32,204 nt of DNA from the NCBI GenBank assembly GCA_030668485.1, contig DAOUTW010000054.1, positions 1 through 32,204 on the forward strand. The letters run 5' to 3'. The first letter of the stretch is position 1. Each line of letters opens with the position of its first letter. Position numbers and translations under genes: made by a program. Under the pieces are notes generated by a model. The model ran no database searches, was not told the origin of the DNA, and saw only the letters and a program-made list of their open reading frames with translations. Shown in pieces: positions 792-32,119 of this stretch. This stretch comes from Candidatus Zixiibacteriota bacterium (GTDB lineage: Bacteria; Zixibacteria; MSB-5A5; GN15; JAAZOE01).

Positions 792-839
792 TCCTTCCCG
801 TCTGGGTCCGCCATCGGCGGATGACCCTGCGACTGAGCC

Positions 840-888
840 CAGGTCATCTACGCGACAGCCAAAAAGTGGCTCTGCCACTGCGGCAGCC
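840..888. repeat. Hairpin repeat, family 2, copy B
   Basis: This is nearly identical to 320-368 in sequence and orientation, including the GTGGC-TCT-GCCAC hairpin. It directly follows the larger hairpin of 785-831 and precedes the family 1 copy at 911-950, so both repeat families occur together at both ends of the non-coding region. Confidence 0.65.
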
Positions 889-910
889 AATAACCGGCCC
901 CTGCCGTCTT

Positions 911-950
911 GGTGCCCCACCTGAAATACTTCTTAGTGTTTCGGGTGGGA
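911..950. repeat. 40-bp hairpin repeat, family 1, copy B
   Basis: This is the second copy of the repeat at 184-223, with two substitutions (CG to TA) at the arm/loop border. It begins 24 bases past the stop codon of the minus-strand flavodiiron gene, so its hairpin could end or stabilise that transcript. No U-tract follows it on that strand, so I do not call it an intrinsic terminator. Confidence 0.65.
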
Positions 951-973
951 TAATCCGGCCCATGCTTGGGATT

Positions 974-2158
974 TTATGTATCAGCCAAAATTTTGTCGGC
1001 CAGAACCGCCGCCGCTTCGCGAAGATTCTGATTATCTTCTTCACCCGGCGCAGCATTGACCTCGATGATACCAACATTCTCGATTTTGGCGCTATCGAAA
1101 AATTCAGCCCCATGAGCCGAGGCAGACTTGCCCCAGCCGTAGCTGTTGATGAACATACCGTATTTCAAAGGCGGCTTAAAAGTTTTGATCATAATCCCGG
1201 CATACTGGATCAGGGGATGCATGGCGCCCAGAACCGTGGGGGAGGCCAAAACCAGAGCGCGGGTATCGACCAGGTGTTCCGCCAGTTCACCCGGCTCAGT
1301 ACCGACCATATCAAAGACTCTGATTTCGATACCCTTGTTCCGAAGGATTTCGACGAAAACTTCCACCATCCGCTCGGTATGCTTATACATGCTGACATAG
1401 ACGATCAAAGCCTTCGGTTTGGTCATCTGATTGGTCCAGCGCGTATATTCGGCCAGGATCGTTTCCGGATGACGGTAAACCGGCCCATGACTGGGAGCGA
1501 TCATTTCGACATCGAGCTTCCTGATCTTGTCCATTGCCATGCGACCCATCTTGGCCAGCGGCATCATTATCTCGCCATAATACTTTTTGGCCCAGAGGAT
1601 GACATCATCGGCCTCATCATCGAACAGCCCGCTGGTATTATGAGCAGCAAAGAAGTCGCAGGAAAACAGCAGTTTGTTTTCAGGAAGATAAGTCAGCATC
1701 GTTTCGGGCCAGTGAATGAAAGGGGAGGGGTGGAAAGTCAGAGTTTTTCCGCCGAGATCGACGGAGTCGCCCTCTTTGACGATCCGGATGCGATCTTGGG
1801 GAACATTGTAATACAGCCCGGCCAGTTCGGCGCCCTTCTTGGTAGTGATCAAAGTGGCGGCGAATTTATCGAGAACATCCGGAATCGCTCCGGCATGATC
1901 CGGTTCGGCATGATTCATGATAACATAATCAACCGGGGTCGAGCCAAGAAGTTGCTCGATTTTGCCAAAGTATTCGTCGCGAAAATCGGGATGGATAGTG
2001 TCGATCAGGGCGGTTTTATTGTCGCCCTTGACGAGGTATCCATTATAGGTAGTGCCTATCGGAGTTGGGGCGAGGGCGTCGAAGACGCGACGTTTCCAAT
2101 CGGTGGCACCGAGAGCATAAACACGGTCTGAGATTTGGGGTGTGGCATATTTATCCAT
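974..2158 (-). CDS. FprA-type flavodiiron protein (A-type flavoprotein)
   Basis: This is a soluble flavodiiron protein. The family reduces O2 to water or NO to N2O at a diiron site fed by FMN, usually with rubredoxin as electron donor; the substrate cannot be told from sequence. The N-terminal metallo-beta-lactamase domain (about residues 1-240 from the chosen start) has the diiron ligands H83, E85, D87, H88 (NHAEPDHAG), H149 (FIHWPETM), D168 (FSCDFFAAH) and H224 (APSHGPVYR). The C-terminal flavodoxin domain (about 245-394) begins ALIVYVSMYKHTERM. The length of 394 residues is normal for a class without extra domains. I chose the ATG at 2158 because GGAG lies 8 bases upstream; the in-frame ATG at 2179 has no such site and lies in the loop of a hairpin. 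The gene follows the kinase gene by 61 bases and is probably co-transcribed. A role in oxidative or nitrosative stress is inferred. Confidence 0.93.
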   Translation of the reverse strand: MDKYATPQISDRVYALGATDWKRRVFDALAPTPIGTTYNGYLVKGDNKTALIDTIHPDFRDEYFGKIEQLLGSTPVDYVIMNHAEPDHAGAIPDVLDKFAATLITTKKGAELAGLYYNVPQDRIRIVKEGDSVDLGGKTLTFHPSPFIHWPETMLTYLPENKLLFSCDFFAAHNTSGLFDDEADDVILWAKKYYGEIMMPLAKMGRMAMDKIRKLDVEMIAPSHGPVYRHPETILAEYTRWTNQMTKPKALIVYVSMYKHTERMVEVFVEILRNKGIEIRVFDMVGTEPGELAEHLVDTRALVLASPTVLGAMHPLIQYAGIMIKTFKPPLKYGMFINSYGWGKSASAHGAEFFDSAKIENVGIIEVNAAPGEEDNQNLREAAAVLADKILADT

Positions 2159-2163
2159 CAATA

Positions 2164-2198
2164 ATTCTCCGTCTGTCATTTGTGTACAGATGGAGAAT
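2164..2198 (-). promoter_or_regulatory. Hairpin enclosing the flavodiiron ribosome-binding site
   Basis: On the transcript strand, ATTCTCCATCTGT pairs with ACAGACGGAGAAT, with one G-U pair in 13 and a 9-base loop. The downstream arm carries the GGAG site that serves the ATG at 2158. The hairpin lies between the kinase stop and this start, and no U-tract follows it. That favours translational control, RNA processing or a dyad operator over a terminator. Function is inferred. Confidence 0.6.
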
Positions 2199-2219
2199 AT
2201 ATGATAAATGAGAATAAAA

Positions 2220-5213
2220 TCAACTGGTTAAGCGGGCCAGACGCTGGCGAGCATCTTTTATCTCATACAGCTCTAAATCAGGCTTGCCCCAGTACTTGAG
2301 CATCTCCTGAAAATGCTTTTTGGCCTGATCGAGGTTACCGAGACCTTCCTCCGCCAAACCGAGGTGGTAATGGGTGAAGAGGAAATCAAAACCGGACGAT
2401 GTCATCTTTTCACCCGCTATGTATTGTGAAAGCAATTCTTTGGCCTGCTGATAGCGGCCAGATAGCGCTGCCAGAAATCCTGCCTGCCGCCTGATGGTTT
2501 CTCCGGACCCGGTACCGCTATCGTATGTCGTCAAGTATCCTTCTATCAACGCGGCGGTATCGGCCTCAACAAGACCATTGAATATCGTCTCGAGGGCGTC
2601 AGCCAGGTGCCATAAATCCGAAGGCAGCCGTGATTTGAGACTTTCCAGAAGTTCATCGAAAAGGGCCCGGTCATCAGCATCAATCTCTCTAGAATTAGTG
2701 GCGAGGGTTAAGGGATAATCAAGTTTCTGGAAGACGGTACCCCAGTCATATGAAAGTTTGGAATAATAAATGGCGCTATCCGGCATCCTGTATTTTGAGT
2801 AAATGTTGCCTATCAGCGCATAAGTTCCGGCAATAAGAGCGCTGTCACCGGTAGCCATAACGGATTCAAGTATTTTGAAGTGATAGTCCATGGATTTTCG
2901 GAATTGGCCATTCCAATTGGCCAGATTGGCCAAGAGGCTATAATAATCCGTCATCTGGTAATTGTCGTCTCCATGATACTCCTTGATTTGGTCGGCAACA
3001 GATCGAGCCTTTTCAAATTCGCGCTGATGAATATAGACAATCCCCAGCCGCGTCAACCCGGTAATATGCCCTGGGAATTTCTGGAGCATGTCAGTGTATT
3101 CCGATGCGGCCCGATCAAATTTATTCTGCCTGGTGTAGATTCGGGCCAGGAGAATATAGGACTCCGGGGAATCCGGATGGTACTGCCGGGCCTGGGCGGC
3201 ATATTCCAGCGCTTTAGCATAATCGCCCCCTTTGACATAAAAGTTCCCATACCACATCAGTGCCGAAATATAATGATTGTCCAGTTGCAGGGCAGTATCC
3301 ATTTGAGCCGTTGCCCCAATCGTATCGGCCGAAAAAACCTGTAGCAAAAGACCATATATATGGCGGCTCTCTTTATCATGGGGATGATTCCGAACCAAAA
3401 GCTCCATTTTGACAAAGGCATCGTCGTATTTCTGATCGAGCCAGAGATTGGCATAAATATCCAGCATGGTGGCTTCCCGATTGGGCAGCCGATCCTGGTA
3501 CTGGCGGGCTTTTTGGAACCAGTGCGCGCCTTCCTGAGGACGACCGCTGAAGACATGAGCCATACCGATACGCATATAGGGCAGGGCAAAGGTCGAATCG
3601 AAGGTTATTGCCTTTTCGAATTCCACAATAGCATCGTCATGCAGGTCTTTCTCGAAATACTGCATACCGTTGAGATATATCCTATATGCCTCTGGAGAGG
3701 ACGAAGTGTAGGTCTTGACGCTGGTTTTGGTGGCCATTTTGTCATCAAGGTTCAATGACCGGGCAATTTTCTCTGTGAGGCTGTCGACCAGGATGAACGG
3801 ATCGGGACCGATTACTTTTTCGGTCAGAATAATGCGGCCGGTGGCGATCTCCTCGATGCGGGCGTCAATTCTGATATTGGGGCCAAGACGATAGTATGAT
3901 CCCGACAAGGCATGTTTGGCTCCTAAAGATCCTGCCGCCTTTAGGCAATCGGGATGAGAGAAAGGGCTACCCGGTTTGTTCAAATCACCACCCAGGCAAT
4001 CGAGAACGCGATCCCGACTGACAATATTCAAAGATTGACTTTGGGCGAGATCAGTCAGAAGAATTTCAGGCAGACCGGTTTGCAGCCATGACAGGGAGTC
4101 TTCTCCCGTTTTATTTTCAAAACCGAGAATCGCCAATGCGTTTTCACCCGCCTGGAGAGTCGGAACGCCGTCGGAACCGGAACCGCCCATTATCTGCCAG
4201 AAAACGACAGCAAGAAAAGCAACGGCGACAAAGGCCGGAATAACCGATTTCAAGATACTTTTTGATTTTGAACGACGGTCCAAAACCCCGGCGGCGTCCG
4301 TAATTCCGGTGGTTACGCCGGAGATATTGCTGTCGTATTGCCTTCTCAGATTGCGAAGATCAACGACCAGATCACGGGTATCCTGGAAGCGGTCATTGGC
4401 GTCTTTTTTCAAGCATTTATCTATTATCCGTTCCAATTCGGGCGGAATATGATCATTAATCAGGCGAGGTGGTTCCTGCTGGACTTCCAGTATCTTGGCC
4501 AGCGTAGAGACCTGGGTATCGCTTTCGAATGGTAGTTTTCCGGTGACCATGCGATAAAGGAGAATACCGAAAGAAAAGATATCGGAACGGGTATCGATTG
4601 TTTCGCCGCGGACCTGTTCTGGCGACATATAAGATACGGTGCCTATAATTTTTCCCGCACGGGTTAATTCCTGCGAGATGGTATCGGCTTCCACATTCTT
4701 CTTATCGGGTTGAAATACCACTACCGGCTTAGCAAGTCCGAAATCAAGGATTTTGGACTTGCCGTCTTTGTCGATGATTATGTTATCGGCTTTGATATCG
4801 CGATGAACGACATTGACCTTGTGCGCTGCATTGAGTCCTGCGGCAATATGTTCGGCTAGGCGGATTATGTTTCTAATATCGGGTTTGTTGTTTCGGACAT
4901 AATCCGTCAACGATTTTCCCTCAATATATTCCATGACAATGTAATCGAGATCCTGACCCGATTTAGGATCGCCGGCGCGACCGATATCATGAATTCCCAT
5001 TACATTGGGATGGGATATGCCGGCGGCGGTTTTGGCTTCGCGATAAAATCGTTCTTTTCGCTCGTCGTCTTCGAAAAAATCGGCCAGCAATATTTTAAGA
5101 GCTATTTTCCGACCCAGCTTTAAATCCTCGGCCAGGTAAACTTCGCCCATACCTCCGGCGCCGAGCCGTTTTATGATTTTAAAATGCGCAAGGGTTTGAC
5201 CGGCTTCCAACAT
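2220..5213 (-). CDS. Membrane Ser/Thr protein kinase with FlgO/TolB-like and TPR region
   Basis: This is a Hanks-type (PknB-like) kinase anchored in the membrane, predicted to phosphorylate Ser/Thr on partner proteins. The kinase domain (about residues 11-285) has the glycine loop GAGGMGEVYLAE, K40 in ALK, HRDIKADN (D139), DFG (157-159) and SPEQ, so it should be active. One membrane segment lies at about 321-342. It is followed by a region (about 355-500) beginning ALAILGFENKTGEDS, which resembles the FlgO/TolB-like domains found in such kinases. From about 510 to the end there are tetratricopeptide repeats, a likely protein-binding or sensing region outside the cytoplasm. The ATG overlaps the stop of the upstream phosphatase gene by one base (TAATG), with AAGGG 7 bases upstream, so translation is probably coupled. 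A kinase next to an FHA-PP2C phosphatase suggests a reversible phosphorylation pair. Confidence 0.93.
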   Translation of the reverse strand: MLEAGQTLAHFKIIKRLGAGGMGEVYLAEDLKLGRKIALKILLADFFEDDERKERFYREAKTAAGISHPNVMGIHDIGRAGDPKSGQDLDYIVMEYIEGKSLTDYVRNNKPDIRNIIRLAEHIAAGLNAAHKVNVVHRDIKADNIIIDKDGKSKILDFGLAKPVVVFQPDKKNVEADTISQELTRAGKIIGTVSYMSPEQVRGETIDTRSDIFSFGILLYRMVTGKLPFESDTQVSTLAKILEVQQEPPRLINDHIPPELERIIDKCLKKDANDRFQDTRDLVVDLRNLRRQYDSNISGVTTGITDAAGVLDRRSKSKSILKSVIPAFVAVAFLAVVFWQIMGGSGSDGVPTLQAGENALAILGFENKTGEDSLSWLQTGLPEILLTDLAQSQSLNIVSRDRVLDCLGGDLNKPGSPFSHPDCLKAAGSLGAKHALSGSYYRLGPNIRIDARIEEIATGRIILTEKVIGPDPFILVDSLTEKIARSLNLDDKMATKTSVKTYTSSSPEAYRIYLNGMQYFEKDLHDDAIVEFEKAITFDSTFALPYMRIGMAHVFSGRPQEGAHWFQKARQYQDRLPNREATMLDIYANLWLDQKYDDAFVKMELLVRNHPHDKESRHIYGLLLQVFSADTIGATAQMDTALQLDNHYISALMWYGNFYVKGGDYAKALEYAAQARQYHPDSPESYILLARIYTRQNKFDRAASEYTDMLQKFPGHITGLTRLGIVYIHQREFEKARSVADQIKEYHGDDNYQMTDYYSLLANLANWNGQFRKSMDYHFKILESVMATGDSALIAGTYALIGNIYSKYRMPDSAIYYSKLSYDWGTVFQKLDYPLTLATNSREIDADDRALFDELLESLKSRLPSDLWHLADALETIFNGLVEADTAALIEGYLTTYDSGTGSGETIRRQAGFLAALSGRYQQAKELLSQYIAGEKMTSSGFDFLFTHYHLGLAEEGLGNLDQAKKHFQEMLKYWGKPDLELYEIKDARQRLARLTS

Positions 5214-6874
5214 TATATATCCCTTTTAATAACTAACATGGTAATGTCATCGGAACGAGGAGTACCCTCGACGAACTTTTCTATATCTTTCATTATAATC
5301 CCTGCCATCTCGTCAGGTTTCTTCTCCCGGCACTCGACAACCAGTTTTTCCAGCCTTTCATCGCCATAATCTTCATCATCGTTCTTTTCCGCCTCAGTGA
5401 TGCCGTCCGTGAAGATTAGCAAAATATCCCCTGGATTCATAACGACGGTATCCTCGCTCCAGGTGATGAAGTCAAAAGCGCCGATCATGGTCCCGGAGGC
5501 CTCCAAAAATTCCAGCGTGCCGTCCCGCCTGACAATATGTGGTGGATTGTGACCGGCATTGATAAAACTGACTTTGTTCTCCTTCGGATCGAGCAAACCG
5601 ATAAAGAGAGTGGCGAAATTTTCCGGGGCGCTGTGTTTGTAAAGCTCCAGCGATACCTGATTCACTGCGCGCGTCAGGTTGAAGTTCTCATCCAGGTACA
5701 AAATCCGGAATGAGGCCAGAATGTTCGACATCAGCAGGGCCGCTCCCATCCCTTTGCCGCTGACATCGGCGACCATAAACAGCAGTCGCCCGTCGGGGAG
5801 TTTTTCCAGGTCATAAAGATCGCCGCCCACGGAACGGCATTGCTCCTGGAAGGCGTGAACGAAGTATCCGGGAGGTTCCGGAATCGCACGGGGCAGAAGC
5901 TTTTTCTGGATCGAGGATGCTTTTTGCAGTTCCGCCTCATACACTTCTTTCAACTGTCGTTCTTTCAGCAGGGTATAGTTGGCGAGGCGGGAGGCGAGGA
6001 TATTTCCGATCATTGCGAACAGATGCAGATAGTCGTCATTGTAACGGTGCAGCGGATTGGTTGTATCGGCATAGAGAATTCCGAGGACGCGGTCGTCATC
6101 AAGCAGTGGCACCGCCATAGCAGATTTCAATTGTGAGGCTATTATCGATTGTTGCTCGGAGAAGCGGGAGTCAACCTTTGCATCGCCGATTAGAATGGCG
6201 TTTTTGTCGGCCAGAATATTCTTAACGATGGTATGCGACAGGGTGAAAGTCCCGGGGTCCTTGCCATCGGGAAGATGTACCGCACCCGTGTAAATCTCGC
6301 TTTGATCTTCGGAGGTGAACAGTACCGCCAGACGGTCGGCGGGAATGATTTTGGTTGCCAGTTGTAGCGAGCGTTCAAGCATCATTTCCTTAGGTTCCGG
6401 CAGGACCAGCATATTGGCTATATCGAACAAAGTCGGCAATAGTTCCGGAAGTTCGTTAACTTTTGAGGGCAGCGGCTTGAGTGCCTCATTCATAGGCATC
6501 AACACCGATTGCTCAGGGTCATAATCAGATAATTGGGTCTGAGTCGGTTTGACTGATGAAGGGGATGTCGCATTTTCATCCACCAGCTTGAATTCGACAC
6601 TGCCGAACTGAATATTGTCACCCGATTTAACTTTTACTCGATCTGATATTCTTTTACCATTATGGTAGGTACCGTTATGGCTACCAAGATCGGTAAGCGT
6701 ACACTCGCTCCCATCTGCCGAGATTTCAAGGATAGCATGGCGCCTCGATACCGCCATATCGGAGACCATGAAATCGCAACTGGAGGTACCCGATTTTCGG
6801 CCGATAACATTTTTCCCGGAATTGAGATCCCAGGTATTGTAGCGACCGCCGTCTATTCCAATTAATCGATACAT
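5213..6874 (-). CDS. FHA-GAF-PP2C (SpoIIE-type) Ser/Thr phosphatase
   Basis: This is a cytoplasmic phosphatase of the RsbU/SpoIIE group with two sensory domains and no membrane segment. The FHA domain (about residues 20-98) has GRKSG (R26), SRRHA (S43, H46) and SHNGTY (N67), the residues that bind phosphothreonine. A GAF domain covers about 150-300. A short helical linker leads into the PP2C domain (about 330-553), with metal-binding acidic motifs GGDLYDL (D352), VADVSGKG (D370), FTDG (D490) and SDDIT (D542, D543), so catalysis looks intact. AAGG lies 5 bases before the ATG. Its stop overlaps the kinase start. The FHA domain could recognise the autophosphorylated kinase, tying phosphatase activity to its neighbour; this is inference. 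It could instead act on an anti-sigma-factor antagonist, but no STAS or RsbW-like gene is in the window. Confidence 0.93.
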   Translation of the reverse strand: MYRLIGIDGGRYNTWDLNSGKNVIGRKSGTSSCDFMVSDMAVSRRHAILEISADGSECTLTDLGSHNGTYHNGKRISDRVKVKSGDNIQFGSVEFKLVDENATSPSSVKPTQTQLSDYDPEQSVLMPMNEALKPLPSKVNELPELLPTLFDIANMLVLPEPKEMMLERSLQLATKIIPADRLAVLFTSEDQSEIYTGAVHLPDGKDPGTFTLSHTIVKNILADKNAILIGDAKVDSRFSEQQSIIASQLKSAMAVPLLDDDRVLGILYADTTNPLHRYNDDYLHLFAMIGNILASRLANYTLLKERQLKEVYEAELQKASSIQKKLLPRAIPEPPGYFVHAFQEQCRSVGGDLYDLEKLPDGRLLFMVADVSGKGMGAALLMSNILASFRILYLDENFNLTRAVNQVSLELYKHSAPENFATLFIGLLDPKENKVSFINAGHNPPHIVRRDGTLEFLEASGTMIGAFDFITWSEDTVVMNPGDILLIFTDGITEAEKNDDEDYGDERLEKLVVECREKKPDEMAGIIMKDIEKFVEGTPRSDDITMLVIKRDI

Positions 6875-30943: not shown

Positions 30944-32119
30944 TCAACAACGTTTCCTTTTTTTCTGTTTTGGTTTGATGATTTTCTTTTTGGCGTCATC
31001 GTAGACGGCAATCTTTATCGGCCCGTAATATAGCTCGAAATAACGATCATCAATTTGTTCAAAAGCTACTGGTTCACCGATAATAGTCTCACTGATATAG
31101 TATTCCTGACCACGCCACCAAAGAGCTCCATTGGGGCGGACTTTGCGAATCATCATATGATCAGGATAAACCATCTCAGGCAACCGCGAGGGATAGGGCC
31201 GCAATGACAATTCATAGACATTATCAGGCGTTTTATTGGCCAGAGCCTCGTGGGGACGGTCATAGTTGTATTCCTGGCAGAAGCGATCAAAAGCCTGTTG
31301 TTGTTCGAATAGCGAGCCCTTTGGAGGTGAGATAACCTCCTCCTTTAGTGTTCGGTGAAATCGTTCATGGCGTCCGTTTTGTTCCGGGTGTCCAGGGTCA
31401 ATTCTCTCGGGAAGAATACCTAGCTTTATCCACCAGACAGCCAGACGGGACAGGCCGCCCAAGGCAGTCGTAGCGAAGGGGGTTCCATTATCGGTGCGAA
31501 TCACCCCGGGAAGACCGTATTCACGGAATACCGCCTCAAAGACAGGCCAGACAGAGGCGTAAGTAGTCTGAGCCAGGCCACGGCATACCAGTGCAAAACG
31601 GCTATGGGCATCGGTCACGGTCAGGGGATCACACCGTTTCCCATCACCGGTCCGGAACCAACCCTTAAAATCAGCACACCAGACAGCATTGGGTGCATAG
31701 CAGTCTTGGAACGGCTGAGTATATGGAGGTGTCCGCCGAGATCGACGAGGCGATCGGGTCTTGCCATGACGAACCAAAATGCGCCCAATCGTGCTCGCTG
31801 CCGGCCATTGTGTACGAGGACGGTTGTCAACTAACCACGCCCGAAGTTTACGGGGCCCCCAACGCGGATGTACCTCGCGCAGCCTCAATATCTCCAATTT
31901 GATATCGTCGCTGACCTCATTGGGGTGATGATGCGGCGTGCTGGTTCGATCTAACAACCCCATAATCCCCTCCAAATCATAACGACGAATCAGTCGGTAG
32001 CCTGTCTTACGACTAATTCCAAACTCCCGGCATAAGGCTGACATGGACCGTTCCTGCCTTAAATACTCGCCTAAAAACTTCAATCGCTCATCCATAACAC
32101 GGGTCTCTTTCCACGGCAT
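30944..32119 (-). CDS. IS481-family transposase
   Basis: This is a DDE transposase of 391 residues. The N-terminal helix-turn-helix (about residues 10-60) contains MSALCREFGISRKTGYRLIR. The integrase core has the first Asp in VWCADFKGWF, the second in VIRTDNGTPFA, and the catalytic Glu in PEQNGRHERFHRTLKEE, so all three acidic residues are present. The C-terminus is basic (KPKQKKRKRC). The ATG at 32119 is preceded by AGGAGG. The gene lies inside paired inverted repeats, and its length is typical for the family. It shows no frameshift or stop, so the element may still be mobile. Confidence 0.93.
   Translation of the reverse strand: MPWKETRVMDERLKFLGEYLRQERSMSALCREFGISRKTGYRLIRRYDLEGIMGLLDRTSTPHHHPNEVSDDIKLEILRLREVHPRWGPRKLRAWLVDNRPRTQWPAASTIGRILVRHGKTRSPRRSRRTPPYTQPFQDCYAPNAVWCADFKGWFRTGDGKRCDPLTVTDAHSRFALVCRGLAQTTYASVWPVFEAVFREYGLPGVIRTDNGTPFATTALGGLSRLAVWWIKLGILPERIDPGHPEQNGRHERFHRTLKEEVISPPKGSLFEQQQAFDRFCQEYNYDRPHEALANKTPDNVYELSLRPYPSRLPEMVYPDHMMIRKVRPNGALWWRGQEYYISETIIGEPVAFEQIDDRYFELYYGPIKIAVYDDAKKKIIKPKQKKRKRC

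Follow-up and report, generated by a model that had tools for sequence, protein, structure and literature searches.

A stem-loop over the start site may insulate translation of a flavodiiron gene from an upstream signalling operon in a Candidatus Zixiibacteriota genome

Results

Gene content of the locus

The window analysed here, a stretch of 32,204 nucleotides from a Candidatus Zixiibacteriota bacterium, corresponds to the complete contig C111 of a 4.5-Mb genome that is assembled into 139 contigs. On its minus strand, a gene for a phosphatase of FHA-GAF-SpoIIE architecture (5213-6874) is followed by a gene for a Ser/Thr kinase with TPR repeats (2220-5213; stop codon 2222-2220) and then by a gene whose product is 394 amino acids in length (974-2158). 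The translation of this last gene was matched by the Pfam families ODP and Lactamase_B, and from the length and layout of the protein we take it to have a flavodoxin part as well and to be a flavodiiron protein (FDP) of class A. The FDP start codon, ATG, lies at 2158-2156 and is preceded at a spacing of 8 nt by the Shine-Dalgarno (SD) sequence GGAG (2170-2167). As homologs align from residue 1 at this position, 2158 is the conserved FDP start. The kinase stop codon is separated from this ATG by 61 nt, the distance given in the original prediction, and the gap contains the entire inner dyad described below.

The phosphatase and kinase genes are adjacent in three other genomes of the family (L148-L150) and possibly constitute a signalling module. 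Downstream of the FDP gene, positions 180-960 of the window contain degenerate interspersed repeats with units like GTGCCCCACCTGAAA...TTTCGGGTGGGA and CATCTACGCGACAGCCA...GTGGCTCTGCC, and a similar CATCCACGCGACAGCCAGA unit is found 3' of the kinase gene in L148. Close to the contig end, an IS481-like integrase/transposase gene (rve, LZ_Tnp_IS481) occupies 30944-32119.

Structure of the hairpin

A dyad search together with folding calculations identified an inverted repeat in the kinase-FDP gap whose arms, 2164-2176 and 2186-2198, are Watson-Crick complementary at 12 of 13 positions and enclose a 9-nt spacer. Read along the minus strand, the upstream (5') arm of this inner hairpin is 2186-2198, the loop (2177-2185) carries an alternative in-frame ATG (2179-2177), and the downstream (3') arm (2164-2176) contains the GGAG of the FDP gene. 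In the mRNA strand, A2191 is opposed to C2171, so that the stem consists of 7 bp, a 1x1 loop and 5 bp, with G-C pairs at five of the 13 positions. The symmetry continues outwards as a looser, extended dyad with 20-nt arms that are 80% complementary around the 9-nt spacer.

The minimum-energy fold calculated for the minus strand has an energy of -22.6 kcal/mol (z = -3.25), with 1 of 200 shuffles folding as well, and is laid out as an outer 8-bp helix, a 3x3 internal loop, 7 bp, the 1x1 mismatch and 5 bp. The outer helix, which was absent from the original prediction, joins 2202-2209 (5' strand) to 2153-2160 (3' strand) and pairs the true start codon. When the sequence context was lengthened the z-score fell to -3.85 and none of 200 shuffles did as well. 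A good fold was obtained for the plus strand too (-25.5, z = -2.59), as expected of a dyad.

Most of what had been predicted from the letters alone was recovered in this analysis. The flavodiiron GGAG does lie within the downstream arm, the alternative upstream ATG does lie within the loop, and no U-tract follows the stem, with 0 terminator-like sites between 1900 and 2600. The proposed 13-bp hairpin is real as a dyad and as a fold, but in the mRNA its stem is interrupted by the A x C mismatch. The calculations support the proposal that the hairpin hides the ribosome-binding site, and they predict that the start codon is hidden too; because the inner stem takes up GGAG and the outer helix takes up ATG, the modelled block of the start site is fuller than had been proposed.

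Dyads of equal quality were found at 5 places in the window (8 raw hits), versus 0 in 6 dinucleotide shuffles. The hairpin exceeds chance expectation, yet it is one of several such dyads in the window. That it is a functionless, lineage-specific product of chance, as its presence in a single genome might suggest, is very improbable given the z-score of the fold and the lack of comparable dyads in the shuffled windows. The start block would also be costly, at the 17.5 kcal/mol reported below, if the RNA that carries it were the main FDP message.

Accessibility of the start site within the host genome

The FDP leader was ranked against a 318-kb sample of its own genome, made up of 286 kb of other contigs and the window. 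Genes in this sample were called with our own ORF heuristic, by which some starts will be wrong; 254 genes were scored first, and 207 were left after filters for length (300 bases) and for an SD sequence. The FDP gene was entered in the set by hand in place of a spurious antisense ORF (821-2131, plus strand). The calculated energy needed to open the SD sequence and AUG of the FDP gene, 17.5 kcal/mol, is the highest among these 207 genes, for which the median is 5.55; the runner-up (C34:69997-70527, 16.3) looks like a terminator ahead of a mis-called start. FDP is also alone among the 207 in having an SD-covering stem that scores above 6, its own score being 10. Plain folding energy is less striking, as 8 of the 207 leaders reach -22.5 kcal/mol or lower, and in three genes, FDP counted, the SD sequence is paired at least as much as that of FDP. 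Elsewhere in the genome, at C54:79718-80741 (L140-L141), a perfect 12-bp dyad (GGAGACTACCCG/CGGGTAGTCTCC) without a clear T-tract follows the stops of two convergent ORF calls, and a minus-strand ORF call there has a very closed start.

Viewed from the kinase gene, the same stem is less exceptional. Stems scoring at least 9 within 80 nt after the stop codon were found for 34 of 245 stops, that of the kinase among them and some of them shared by convergent genes, versus 0 of 245 when each region was subjected to one mononucleotide shuffle. The FDP stem is thus unremarkable among post-stop hairpins but stands out among start-site hairpins, and because strong post-stop stems are common in this genome it may have an origin other than control of FDP translation. 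The main rival to a translational role is that the phosphatase-kinase operon ends in this stem, which would protect the 3' end of its RNA or act as a weak terminator that has no U-tract; that the stem overlaps the SD sequence would then be a side effect of the short gap. A hairpin also follows the kinase stop in L148 and L149, the two kinase relatives whose sequence extends that far, and by the T count of our script 14 of the 34 post-stop stems, the kinase-FDP stem included, have fewer than 6 T. The other 20, however, have at least 6, against 4 for the stem studied here, which does not qualify as an intrinsic terminator and has only the five G-C pairs noted above. Like the operon-end hairpins of the same genome, it is a strong stem, placed 21 nt after the kinase stop; unlike them, it has no U-tract and one of its arms is the SD sequence of the next gene, with the start codon of that gene in the outer helix. 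If 3' protection were its sole role, moreover, FDP would remain blocked on read-through RNA. The overlap with SD and ATG, like the missing U-tract, speaks against an operon-end hairpin as a complete account, and we consider this explanation unlikely, though it is the strongest competitor.

The distances within the gap also bear on the suggestion that ribosomes from the kinase gene open the hairpin. The kinase stop codon lies 10 nt from the outer helix and 21 nt from the inner stem; the latter distance is more than a ribosome usually spans when it terminates. Coupling to the ribosome that terminates on the kinase gene is therefore doubtful.

Candidate promoter and transcript 5' end

The best promoter-like site in the FDP leader is TTGATT-16-TATATT (2196-2223, minus strand), which matches the consensus at 9 of 12 positions; its score with the matrix used here was reached by 7.8% of shuffles of the same leader. 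Sigma70-like promoters are enriched upstream of the sampled genes (p = 1.5e-5; 125 regions, each compared with 5 shuffles), and among these 125 regions the FDP site stands at the 84th percentile. Counting against the site, its TTGA overlaps the kinase stop codon, and CCAGTTGAT likewise ends the kinase gene in L148, from a genome that gave no match to FDP. Transcription usually begins 6-8 nt from such a site, which places the predicted start at about 2190-2188, within the upstream arm of the hairpin.

The energy calculated for opening the SD sequence and AUG depends steeply on where the RNA begins. For the tested 5' ends from 2260 to 2209 it is 17.1-17.5 kcal/mol, and in the model the SD sequence of these long RNAs is unpaired with a probability of 0.001 and the AUG with a probability of 0.008-0.011. 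The cost falls to 10.8 at 2196, to 6.4 at 2194 and, once the RNA begins at 2192-2186, to 4.2-4.8, close to the median of 5.55 for the sample, although in the model the SD sequence of the short RNA is still mostly paired (unpaired 0.14-0.20). The fold of an RNA that begins at 2189 is unremarkable (-5.1, z = 0.58). In our view the likeliest place for the FDP transcript to start is the upstream arm, from the predicted promoter, for which the evidence is weak. Such a start comes close to one downstream of the hairpin, which the original prediction had named as evidence against itself, yet the hairpin would gain a function from it.

The extended dyad also overlaps the predicted -10 element and transcript start, as would a DNA operator on which a repressor dimer or tetramer covers both. 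Several observations make this reading distinctly improbable. A single place in the 4.5-Mb genome carries the dyad core, TCTGT-N9-ACAGA, and a search for the full dyad with up to 3 mismatches allowed also gave one place, and hence no regulon is seen. Among seven window proteins scanned, helix-turn-helix hits were confined to the integrase, 29 kb away, and an operator would give no reason to expect an RNA helix that covers the ATG. The earlier proposal that the dyad serves as an operator thus finds no support in its regulon form; a private operator is the improbable form that would be left. The single occurrence in the genome likewise led us to reject a repeated or mobile dyad.

Comparison with related genomes

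We assembled 88 leaders of FDP homologs, comprising 11 orthologs from the phylum and 77 of 80 loci from a homolog search, with L040, L097 and L105 omitted as apparent duplicates of L002, L120 and L121, whose contigs they equal in length. None of the 88, whose start codons were chosen by rule, has an SD-covering stem scoring 7 or more, and none reaches an opening energy of 12, the maximum being 11.4; the count leaves out 28 loci of 32-40% identity (L003-L030), and many of the 77 are archaeal, which makes them a weak comparison for a bacterial leader. The dyad pattern is present in 1 of 132 genomes of the phylum, namely that of the window, and the other 131 gave no match. The closest FDP ortholog (L002, 60%), from a genome of the same family, has no comparable stem and follows a different gene, nitroreductase-like as read from its ORF.

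Kinase orthologs (50-55%, E 1e-150 or better) were found in three of the six other genomes of the family (G002, G003 and G004), each behind the same phosphatase, and none of these three genomes contains an FDP match at E 0.001. In the host, FDP thus follows an operon that has no such companion in these other genomes. The kinase-FDP gene order is kept by none of the relatives found, and among the genomes searched the position of FDP behind the kinase is peculiar to the host lineage. Beyond the end of the kinase gene, a terminator-like stem with a T-run was seen in L149, and in L148 a stem that has no T-run and starts 17 nt after the stop; the sequence of L150 ends at the kinase gene.

A regulated translational switch, in which a protein, a small RNA, a metal or a redox cue opens the hairpin on the kinase-operon mRNA, would suit a very closed start on a gene for O2/NO reduction, an activity that is often made on demand. 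Against such a switch, no homolog leader among the 88 carries a comparable stem and the other 131 genomes of the phylum lack the dyad pattern. We judge 17.5 kcal/mol to be a great deal for a single ligand to overcome, and a known riboswitch or leader family was rejected, as no Rfam 15 family matched the window at its gathering score. A simple RNA thermometer was rejected as well, since in the model the SD sequence stays closed to 70 C, where each base of GGAG is unpaired at 0.03 or less (AUG, 0.24-0.35). A regulated switch is on this evidence quite improbable.

Discussion

The explanation that best fits these observations, to which we nonetheless give somewhat less than an even chance, is that the stem-loop acts as a fold-back insulator of FDP translation. 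Read-through RNA from the phosphatase-kinase operon, the occurrence of which we infer, would carry both arms and fold shut over GGAG and AUG, and because both would be paired, FDP would hardly be made from it. RNA from the predicted promoter of FDP itself would start within the upstream arm, so that the stem could not form and access to the start would be much like that of an ordinary gene in this genome. If this promoter is used, as we also infer, the level of FDP would then track its own promoter, independently of the signalling operon.

We counted in favour of fold-back that there is no U-tract to end kinase transcription ahead of FDP. Against it we counted that loss of the 5' arm would open any hairpin and that the mRNA-strand stem contains the A x C mismatch. 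That the arrangement was selected for is a presumption, as none of the 88 homolog leaders carries the stem. Fold-back and an operon-end origin could both hold, with an operon-end stem later also serving as an insulator.

Fold-back inhibition on read-through RNA is known for the transposase genes of IS10, IS50 and IS200. As in those elements, transcription from outside would yield an mRNA whose start site is sequestered; unlike them, FDP is not a mobile element. The nearest parallel is with phage T4, where PMC3014915 describes gene e (lysozyme), and also soc, 49 and I-TevI, as closed at the start on long early RNA and open on RNA from a late promoter. For gene e, the same paper describes late-promoter RNA that is without the 5' strand of the helix, with mapped 5' ends and a reported effect of about 100-fold. 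As in gene e so described, the FDP SD sequence and AUG lie in a helix whose 5' strand would be missing from RNA of the predicted nearby promoter, that promoter would lie in the region encoding this strand, and transcripts from upstream would contain the whole helix. The case differs from that description in being a chromosomal redox enzyme gene of a bacterium, known from sequence alone, with a predicted promoter and a stem that was found in no relative.

We put forward more tentatively a fuller version, in which one dyad would serve as 5' arm, as transcript start region and as SD lock, so that the same coding sequence would be shut off on one mRNA and expressed from the other. This would be the logic of T4 gene e in a cellular setting, applied to an O2/NO defence enzyme at a junction that related genomes lack. 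A limited literature search returned no report of hairpin or SD control of flavodiiron translation, and one may already be in print; what we describe is most likely a known style of control, specific to a lineage, at a new place.

If the fold-back reading is correct, no terminator is needed to insulate a gene from transcription of an unrelated operon ahead of it; a stem is enough, together with a promoter that starts inside that stem. Operon predictions, which from the 61-nt gap and the shared strand would join the kinase and FDP genes, could then mislead at the level of translation.
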